A DNA stretch of 64,000 nt from Bacteroidota bacterium (GTDB lineage Bacteria; Bacteroidota; Bacteroidia; NS11-12g; UBA955), in NCBI GenBank assembly GCA_018333525.1, contig JAGXTF010000090.1:1-64000 (forward strand). The letters are read 5' to 3'. Shown one piece after another: positions 54,747 through 57,644 of the stretch. Position numbers and translations under genes: made by a program. Each line of letters opens with the position of its first letter. Within the stretch, counting starts at the first letter, position 1. The notes beneath the pieces are model-generated. The model had not been told where the DNA came from. It saw nothing but the letters and a program-made list of their open reading frames with translations, and searched no databases.

Positions 54747-54799
54747 TTAAAACAGGAATATTGGTTGGTTTTTGATTTAATAACCCAAACAAATACAGG

Positions 54800-57358
54800 T
54801 TATTTTATTACAACTTCTGAATATAATTTTTCATATTCTCCATCACCTTCTTCGCCATTATTCATAGTGAGATTGATGTCGTAATTGTTGTATAATTCCA
54901 AACTGTTACGTTCGGTAAAAATGGCTTCCTGGTATTTTTTAAAAGTGTCATGGTAGAGTTTTTCAGGTTCTTCTTCAAAAACTGCACGTGACAGATTTAC
55001 CAGTTTTTCTTCCCACTCCCTGTGCAATTTGTGTTTTTCCGGTTTGGTTTTCATTGCCTTTTCAAATTGCTTCAGAGCCTGAATAAACAGTTCTTCTGTT
55101 CTTGCATTTTGCAAAGTCTCCGCTTCATTCCTCAACGTAATTCCCCAATGATAATATGCTTCAAACAAACCGGGTTTAATAGCAAGTGCATTTTTAAAAC
55201 ATTCCCCTGCCTGAAAATACAGATCTTTGGTTTTAGACATTTCTGCCATATACGCCACCTTGCCCATGCAAATCCCTTTATTGGTATAAACCTCGGCACT
55301 GTTAGGATCCAGGCTTAATGCATGATCAAATTTTTCGAAAGACTGCTTATAAATTTGCTGGGATTCTTTTCCTGATTTCAGATTTCCCAGATTCCAAAGC
55401 GCAATACCCCAGTTGTTATAAATTTCGTAGTTCTGCGGGTAGGTGTATGCAATGGTTTCGTATTTCTCACAGGCGCTTTTCAACAATCTCTGTGCTTCCT
55501 CAATACCCTTTAACATGGCAAGATTGCATAAATCCTGCGTCCAGTTCATTGCAGCATCAAAAGAAGTGGGATTTAATTCCTGTGCCAATGCATATTTGCT
55601 GCAAGCTTCTTCATAAAGCGCAAGCGCTTCTGCGGATCTTTTGATTCTTGCCAATTGTCTTAAACCAATCCCCCATCGAATATATGCTTCCTGATTTTCT
55701 GAATCTCTTTTAACAGCTGCGGCAAACTTGGCGAATGCTTCATCCAGATAAAGTTCCGCTTCTTCATCCCGCTTCATTGCAGCGAGATTACACAATCCCG
55801 TTCCCCAATGGATATATATGTCTGTAAGCTCCGGATTGATTTTTAAAATAGCTTTATATTTATCAAAGGCCTGGAAATAAAGCCTTTGGGCTTCAACCTC
55901 ATTTTTTGTTTCGGCGAGCCGTATTAAACCTTGCGCCCAGGCATGCAGGGTTTCAAAATCTTTTGGATCTCCGGCCATGGCATCTTCAAATCTCTGAAAT
56001 GCCTCTTCATATAGGTTTTCAGCATCATCTGAGTCCAACAACGCCGCCAATTGAAGCAGACAGGTGCCAAGTTTAAAATTGACCTCACTTACCTCTTCAC
56101 TTGCTTCTAATGCCTGGCGATATCGATTTGCGGCATCATTGAGTAAATTTTTGGCTTCGCCGGAAGCAGCACCTTCAGCACTTTTCTGTATGGCTTCTCC
56201 CCAGTGAAACAGAAAATATGCAAAATATTTTTTGGCTTCAGGTTCTTCTGAATTTTCTAAAGCTGCTTTTAGAGCTTCATAATGAGACCAGTTTTTTGAA
56301 GTCCAGGATTCTCGGGCAGATTCTATAAAGGAACTTTTTGCCCCCAGCGGAGATTCAGATTTTACTTTGGTTTTTTTTTCTGGTATCTCTAACTCCGGTT
56401 TCTTTACTGGCACCGGTTTCCCCGATTCTTCCGGAACAGCTGGTTTTATTTCAGGTATTTGAACCTTTGGAATGACAGGTGCACTGATCTGAATCTCTCT
56501 TGGTGTGGATGAAATATCTCCAAGTACTTCTGCAACCAAATCCAATGGATTGTTCAGTATTCTCGGAACAGGCAATTGCAATTCATCACTTAGCGCCATG
56601 AAAAACTGATCAGCATCATAACCTTTTATGAAACAGCTATGTTTGCTCGGCTTATTCAACACTCCATGCAATACATGCTCTTCGGGCTCATCATCGCCGT
56701 TACCAATCCAATACAACCGGTTTTCAAAACTTCGTATATCCGCAAGGAAGCCTAAAACAGGATCTTCTGCGCCACTATAGCCAACAACGATTACAGTGTG
56801 TTTTTCAAACATTTCCTGAAAACAGGTTTTTAGTTTCTCCTGCTGTGCAAAATATCCGTTTTCACCGTTATACCTTAAAATCCCATCGGTTCTGCCATGC
56901 AGGTGCACTACAGACGGGCTTTCCAATTCACGCACCATTTCTACATTCATGGTTTGGAAATCGTAAATAGTGGGAAAAACATTTTCCAGGGCCAGAGCTC
57001 TTGGAATTAAAGTGTCGAAATTGGTGGTGAAAATGGTTCTGGTATATTCGGCTTTTACTAATGTTGCCAAATACAAATGTGCTGAATTCACCCGCGATTC
57101 CTGCACATAAGTCTTGATCAATTCCTGCCTTTGGCTGGGAGTTAAAACTTCCAAATGATCCTCATAAGTAACCGGATGCATCCTGGCGCAAAGGCTGGAA
57201 AAATCTTGACGAATTCTGGAAATAATGCCTTCCGAATCAGGGATACCACCACTTACAGATACGCCTGATCCCAAAAGAAAAATGGTGGAATGGCTGTGTT
57301 GCCTGTTCCAGAGCAGTTGTTCTTTTACTTCCCTTATGTCTGTTTCACTATATTTCAA
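54800..57358 (-). CDS. SIR2-like (NADase-type) domain protein with ten 44-aa TPR-like repeats
   Basis: N-terminus IFLLGSGVSVSGGIPDSEGI, TIFTTNFDTLIPRAL, VVHLHGRTDG, VIVVGYSGAEDPVLGFL match SIR2/SIR2_2 motifs; C-terminal half is TPR-like. TTG start at 57358-57356 is the only candidate before the SIR2 motif (in-frame TGA at 57391-57389). Confidence 0.88.
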   Translation of the reverse strand: MKYSETDIREVKEQLLWNRQHSHSTIFLLGSGVSVSGGIPDSEGIISRIRQDFSSLCARMHPVTYEDHLEVLTPSQRQELIKTYVQESRVNSAHLYLATLVKAEYTRTIFTTNFDTLIPRALALENVFPTIYDFQTMNVEMVRELESPSVVHLHGRTDGILRYNGENGYFAQQEKLKTCFQEMFEKHTVIVVGYSGAEDPVLGFLADIRSFENRLYWIGNGDDEPEEHVLHGVLNKPSKHSCFIKGYDADQFFMALSDELQLPVPRILNNPLDLVAEVLGDISSTPREIQISAPVIPKVQIPEIKPAVPEESGKPVPVKKPELEIPEKKTKVKSESPLGAKSSFIESARESWTSKNWSHYEALKAALENSEEPEAKKYFAYFLFHWGEAIQKSAEGAASGEAKNLLNDAANRYRQALEASEEVSEVNFKLGTCLLQLAALLDSDDAENLYEEAFQRFEDAMAGDPKDFETLHAWAQGLIRLAETKNEVEAQRLYFQAFDKYKAILKINPELTDIYIHWGTGLCNLAAMKRDEEAELYLDEAFAKFAAAVKRDSENQEAYIRWGIGLRQLARIKRSAEALALYEEACSKYALAQELNPTSFDAAMNWTQDLCNLAMLKGIEEAQRLLKSACEKYETIAYTYPQNYEIYNNWGIALWNLGNLKSGKESQQIYKQSFEKFDHALSLDPNSAEVYTNKGICMGKVAYMAEMSKTKDLYFQAGECFKNALAIKPGLFEAYYHWGITLRNEAETLQNARTEELFIQALKQFEKAMKTKPEKHKLHREWEEKLVNLSRAVFEEEPEKLYHDTFKKYQEAIFTERNSLELYNNYDINLTMNNGEEGDGEYEKLYSEVVIK
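54899..56218 (-). repeat. Ten tandem 44-aa (132-nt) TPR-like repeats, residues 381-820
   Basis: Each unit fits x(A/I)YxxWGxxLxxLAxxKxxxEAxxLYxxAxxKYxxAxxxxPxx, e.g. DIYIHWGTGLCNLAAMKRDEEAELYLDEAFAKFAAAVKRDSENQ; counted exactly, units abut without gaps. Confidence 0.85.
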
Positions 57359-57432
57359 ATCAAAATCCTCCCTTTTTCCAAAAAGAAATCACACACACAG
57401 ATTTGGTGTTTAAGCGGCATATTTGAAATTAG

Positions 57433-57463
57433 AAATTTCACGATGGAGGAATCGTGTGAATTT
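57433..57463 (-). promoter_or_regulatory. Inverted repeat/hairpin upstream of SIR2-TPR gene
   Basis: + strand aaattt CACGAT GGAGGA ATCGTG tgaattt: 6-bp perfect stem (57439-57444 / 57451-57456), arms extended by AAATT/AATTT with a bulge. Confidence 0.45.
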
Positions 57464-57644
57464 GTTTCAATTTTAAAACCAACCTCAGGAATAACCTAAA
57501 AAATTGAATTCCTTGTGGACAATTTCCTTTCCTGAACCAAATTAAAAATACCTGTTTTAAACGCTTATGTAGCATTGAAATTCCTGAAAATAATCTTGCC
57601 TTGTAACAGAATATGCCGTGCAATAAAATCTCCAAGTAATTGAA

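Follow-up and report, generated by a model that had tools for sequence, protein, structure and literature searches.

The question raised by this locus is what function could be served by a solitary gene coding for a SIR2 domain joined to a long array of repeats. The gene lies in the window, i.e. the whole stretch of 64,000 nucleotides that was analysed from a contig of a Bacteroidota bacterium. A sequence-only reading had interpreted its product as an NADase effector tethered to a TPR sensor, and our analysis supported this interpretation as a prediction from sequence. Beyond the view of that reading were three observations: the protein belongs to a wide, horizontally scattered family; in this family a conserved effector is joined to a hypervariable TPR part; and the site of the gene is empty in close relatives.

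Gene structure and SIR2 domain

The SIR2-TPR gene (54800..57358, minus strand) is a single uninterrupted frame of 852 codons, as shown by the list of open reading frames and the translation, and it runs from a TTG start to a stop codon at 54800-54802. A Shine-Dalgarno-like AAGGGAGG (57367..57374, minus strand) is found 8 nt before the TTG. The start point is common to the relatives, two of which (L031 and L033) also use TTG. The length of the protein and the positions of its SIR2 motifs are exactly those given by the sequence-only reading, with the GSGVS dinucleotide-binding loop at residues 30-34 (57257..57271, minus strand), GIPD at 38-41, TTNFD at 111-115 and HLHG at 152-155.

An AlphaFold2 model, calculated with 57 family sequences, has a mean pLDDT of 84.8, and both folded parts are well modelled. 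The SIR2 domain (SIR2_2) covers residues 1-283 (56510..57358, minus strand; pLDDT mostly above 85), and the corresponding Pfam family matches residues 108-227 with an E value of 5.5e-14, above the curated cut-off. The Pro/Lys/Glu-rich hinge noticed in the sequence corresponds to residues 285-341 (56336..56506, minus strand), a flexible linker with predicted disorder and the sole long low-confidence stretch inside the model. The repeats that follow, already taken for TPRs in the sequence-only reading, are TPRs of the TOM20 type (Pfam E 1.6e-18, above the curated cut-off). The array comprises about ten TOM20-like units at residues 342-793 (54980..56335, minus strand; pLDDT mostly above 90), and its period is exactly 44 residues. 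An HMM built only from the repeat units of relatives (consensus ALNNWGNALGDLAKTKEGKEAERLYQQAFEKYAKAIEIKPDKHE) found ten units between residues 386 and 813. The C-terminal tail (residues 794-852; 54803..54979, minus strand) is again of low confidence, and the NCBIfam scan gave no match to the TPR_END_plus cap (NF047558) in the window protein. A foreign origin judged by composition and codon use was considered and dropped, since neither looked foreign; in fact, the codon usage of the gene resembles that of its neighbours.

Comparison of the SIR2 profile with the PDB gave short-pAgo SIR2 as the closest domain (E 2.6e-15), followed by ThsA (5.5e-7) and by deacetylases (about 1e-3). In the profile alignment, N113 of TTNFD (57020..57022, minus strand) and H154 of HLHG (56897..56899, minus strand) lie opposite the TTN and HG positions of the short-pAgo SIR2 and ThsA structures, so that N113 is aligned with the catalytic Asn of ThsA (TTNYD) and short-pAgo SIR2 (TTNFD), and H154 with the catalytic His of the HG motif; the catalytic roles of these SIR2 residues have been described (PMC11263360). 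PADLOC gave matches to pAgo-SIR2 (5e-23), PDC-S65 (5.5e-18) and, weakly, ThsA. No model of PADLOC 2.0 spans the whole protein, the pAgo models matching the SIR2 part only.

Wherever the 77 relatives all carry the same residue, the window protein carries it too, despite its long branch. For TxNFD, part of the 100% conservation is built in, as this motif was a search seed; the position of H154, which was not a seed, is occupied by His in 72 of the 77 relatives, by Asn in four and by Tyr in one. In L030, L082, L088 and L106, the HG motif with the catalytic His is replaced by NG, so that Asn is the main natural substitution at this position. The Asn variant (NG) is used by Avs5, where it is functional and required (PMC12931631).

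Distribution of the family and position of the gene

A single-query search with the window protein gave no match in genome contigs, but a four-member SIR2 alignment was successful: when it was used to scan the GTDB species-representative genomes, 245 loci encoding relatives of the SIR2 domain were found. Among the best 80 of these 245 loci, about 20 phyla are represented, with Helarchaeota, Pacearchaeota and Methanosarcinaceae on the archaeal side, and nearly all intact members of this set show the same order of SIR2 domain, linker and TPR array, with a period that is mostly 44 residues. Over the SIR2 domain, the window protein is 38-42% identical to proteins of several other phyla, a family resemblance that for this reason is far beyond chance, and a search of Bacteroidota with this domain gave three close relatives of the same plan. 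The window protein shares with the family a SIR2_2 domain with the TxNFD, LHG and GYSG..DP motifs, the array of 44-residue TOM20-like TPR units and the condition of a solitary gene without a recurrent partner. It lacks the TPR_END_plus cap, which is common in the family, though not universal, and was present in all five relatives scanned by NCBIfam. That the cap might mark conflict proteins was considered and given up, because 122 of 148 Bacteroidota genomes contain TPR_END_plus.

Close to home the distribution is patchy. The full-length protein found no relative in 57 neighbouring genomes except one weak TPR match, and a SIR2 match of any kind was present in two of the 108 genomes of the order, the window genome included. 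Plasmid and phage collections contained no close relatives, only distant SIR2 or TPR matches; viral contigs gave distant SIR2 domains only, and most Foldseek matches among viral proteins were generic TPR/Sel1 repeats. A SIR2 and TPR protein annotated as a TPR protein only is encoded by the Haloferax pleolipovirus Halfgib1 (L183:2062-3729), near int and dcm; its TPRs are canonical and not of the 44-residue unit. In a quick tree covering about 20 phyla, the clades are mixed across phyla, and the window protein, at the end of a long branch (1.69), groups with sequences of Aminicenantes, Bacteroidota, Helarchaeota and Pacearchaeota (SH-aLRT 97). A restriction of the homologues to one housekeeping locus, inherited vertically, was the outcome named beforehand as contrary to a defence role; it was looked for and not found. 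Two observations concern individual members. In Candidatus Haliotispira prima (L099 region; G514:C1:297283 and 301391), two SIR2-TPR-like copies lie about 4 kb apart. In L034, L092 and L103, a stop interrupts the SIR2 part and the rest is in another frame, which may represent decay, a sequencing error or a programmed change.

The flanking genes are those described in the sequence-only reading, that is tyrS and an exopolysaccharide operon. The tyrosyl-tRNA synthetase gene on one side is convergent to the SIR2-TPR gene; on the other side are a GT2 glycosyltransferase gene, an unmatched 358-aa open reading frame and a gene for an SLBB polysaccharide-export protein. A genome of the same family (G008) has this syntenic block without the stretch that separates tyrS from the GT2 gene in the window (54747..57644): there, the SLBB gene, a 357-aa frame and the GT2 gene are followed directly by tyrS, without SIR2-TPR. 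In another genome (G018), the block is contiguous and consists of the SLBB gene, a 346-aa frame and tyrS, without either SIR2-TPR or GT2. Conservation on both sides makes an assembly error in the contig unlikely; judged from these arrangements, the gene most naturally looks as if it had been inserted into the tyrS/exopolysaccharide block, or else repeatedly lost from it. The gene is bracketed by an imperfect 16-nt inverted repeat with a TTAAAACAGG core, whose arms lie at 54747..54762 (plus strand) and 57545..57560 (minus strand). A repeat of this quality was equalled in 6 of 300 shuffles, and its arms are possibly the ends of an insertion, a weak lead that we do not claim. No convincing flanking direct repeat, as expected of mobile-element ends, was seen around the gene.

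For about 65 relatives, the four nearest genes, two per flank, were surveyed with Pfam and PADLOC. No family of either library occurred in more than three members of this immediate-neighbour set, which bears out the earlier view of a solitary gene. The neighbourhoods consist mostly of housekeeping genes. Strong PADLOC neighbours were Avs2, PDC-S02, PDC-M28B/C, PDC-S05, PDC-S23 and PDC-S60, each found once, whereas among 132 genes drawn at random from these genomes as a control, matches were fewer and weaker, a CARF protein and mad3 excepted; PADLOC has no curated cut-offs, and mad3/AriA matches occurred in both neighbour and control sets. The anticipated enrichment of homologues in defence islands was therefore present, but only modest with respect to the random control. 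In a Pacearchaeota contig (L031:236-6893), a SIR2-TPR gene is directly upstream of a gene for a 1388-aa Avs2 protein (E 2.8e-214). The window genome itself contains, on contig C61 (L001:23-2217), a second SIR2_2 gene of 386 aa, which adjoins an open reading frame resembling an Mrr-type restriction endonuclease; going by these similarities, the two may form a separate two-gene conflict system.

Divergence of the repeat part among close relatives

How the two halves of the protein evolve was seen at the level of the family, in a Flavobacterium trio and an Azospirillum pair, which are not alleles of the window gene. Three Flavobacterium species (L091, L094 and L097) carry a SIR2-TPR gene at one shared locus. 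Their SIR2 domains are 94-96% identical, as compared to 58-66% for the remainder, with no more than four gap columns. In the closest pair, L091 and L097, identity falls abruptly near residue 352 and rises again at the cap; the SIR2 part has a dN of 0.020 vs. 0.294 in the remainder, and a dS of 0.52 vs. 1.47. The adjacent proteins at the locus are 98-99% identical, and six other orthologous TPR proteins of the same two genomes are 88-99% identical, therefore the divergence of the repeats is not a general property of TPRs. The alignment shows that the TPR scaffold residues are kept while most others change. In Azospirillum (L095 and L100), identity is 94% in the SIR2 part vs. 66%, and eight and four repeat units, respectively, were detected. 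Close relatives of one another thus combine a conserved effector with a hypervariable TPR part. Part of this variability may stem from recombination or relaxed constraint, given that dS is likewise elevated and that dN/dS, taken over the whole repeat part, is about 0.2.

Proposed mechanism and relation to known systems

The architecture, the intact catalytic residues, the solitary gene, the empty site in relatives, the scattered distribution and the divergence pattern are all observed. What they point to, in our judgement with good probability, is a stand-alone NADase immune receptor with a TPR sensor and a phage protein as the most likely trigger. In the scheme that we infer, the N-terminal SIR2 domain would be an NAD+ hydrolase, inactive at rest, and the C-terminal superhelix of about ten 44-residue TPR units would be the sensor. 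A foreign protein, most likely from a phage, would bind to the superhelix, and the flexible hinge would let the SIR2 domains rearrange or assemble upon binding. The activated domain would convert NAD+ into ADP-ribose and nicotinamide, and phage growth would stop in the NAD+-starved cell.

The same mechanism with a non-viral trigger would serve other conflicts, for example the exclusion of plasmids, kin recognition or the sensing of interbacterial toxins. A fast-changing repeat part fits any antagonist, defence neighbours are few, and SPARSA, the system with the closest SIR2 relative, acts against mobile elements, reportedly through NAD+ depletion (Zaremba et al. 2022). Nothing specific speaks against such a role, and sequence does not separate it from phage defence, although the SIR2 and TPR gene of a haloarchaeal virus, near int and dcm, fits competition between viruses; we consider a non-phage role unlikely, yet worth keeping in mind. 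We give still less credit to a regulatory sirtuin, i.e. a deacylase of proteins or an ADP-ribosyltransferase, to which the TPR arm would bring cellular substrates. Recruitment of partner proteins is common for TPRs and weak, sub-threshold matches to CobB-type deacylases do exist, but the SIR2 domain is closer to NADases than to deacylases and is without zinc-binding Cys pairs. In fact, the zinc-type CxxC is absent from it, and no row with two Cys pairs, which CobB-type enzymes carry in their small subdomain, was found among the 78 aligned. The patchy distribution within the order also argues against this role, as does the hypervariability of the repeats relative to other TPR orthologues, which is unexpected if the partner were a conserved cellular protein.

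The possibility that the gene is a degenerating or inactive copy, on a long branch, without its former cap and under relaxed selection, appears very improbable. The length of the end branch, the absent cap and the frameshifts of some relatives would agree with decay. Against it, all 852 codons are open, every column invariant among the relatives is retained, the ten repeats are in register and confidently modelled, and codon usage is as in the neighbouring genes.

Returning to the stand-alone receptor, we lean slightly towards the broader view that the relatives form a pan-prokaryotic one-gene receptor family: a SIR2 NADase that hardly varies would be connected straight to a TPR array, without STAND ATPase or partner, and specificity would shift rapidly through substitutions and through the acquisition or loss of 44-residue units. 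If this is true, the family would be among the simplest designs of immune receptor, consisting of a single gene for one enzyme domain plus a modular binding arm, and would range from Paenibacillus and Flavobacterium to archaea. Its design would bear on whether direct sensing needs no ATPase switch, and the constant effector with a variable sensor makes recognition residues approachable via the near-identical Flavobacterium or Azospirillum alleles. The family is not fully modelled in a standard defence-gene library (PADLOC 2.0), and no named or described SIR2-TPR system was found in the open-access literature, subscription papers and preprints lying outside the search. The tree of FAM118 sirtuins labels some SIR2_2 proteins with an extra TPR domain (PMC12700824), as a label only, without function, distribution or evolutionary pattern.

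Among known systems, ThsA of Thoeris is a SIR2 NADase with the same catalytic pair; the window protein has neither its C-terminal SLOG domain nor a neighbouring gene for the ThsB TIR partner. Although its SIR2 domain is the closest by profile, the short-pAgo system SPARSA (SIR2-APAZ) has an APAZ domain and an adjacent short Argonaute, both absent here, where the neighbours are tyrS and exopolysaccharide genes. In SIR2-HerA, a HerA ATPase gene is adjacent; no ATPase occurs among the adjacent genes of this locus. In the fold search, generic TPR superhelices came first, and DSR2 and the SPARSA complex were among the best non-generic PDB matches. DSR2 is also a single protein, with an N-terminal SIR2 NADase (an activity predicted here), corresponding catalytic Asn and His, and a long C-terminal helical-repeat sensor, into the cavity of which the phage tail-tube protein binds to activate it (PMC11263360). 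The match is loose (rmsd around 30 Å over the full length), and DSR2, of about 1000 aa, continues after its SIR2 domain with an HTH, a helix bundle, six HEAT repeats and a C-terminal domain (PMC11263360), whereas the window protein has a disordered hinge and, from residue 342, a regular 44-residue TPR array; PADLOC gave no DSR match. The suspected mismatch with DSR1/DSR2 and ThsA was in this way borne out. Avs5, a SIR2-STAND-repeat protein, shares the N-terminal SIR2_2 effector, the C-terminal TPR-type sensor and, with the family as a whole, the HG/NG variation at the catalytic His. It differs in its central STAND NTPase, in place of which the window protein, without any NTPase match, has the disordered linker (285-341) and then the TPRs. 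The best reading of these likenesses and differences is that the window protein probably works on a principle like that of DSR2 and Avs5 while belonging to neither, the design being reduced to an effector and a sensor.
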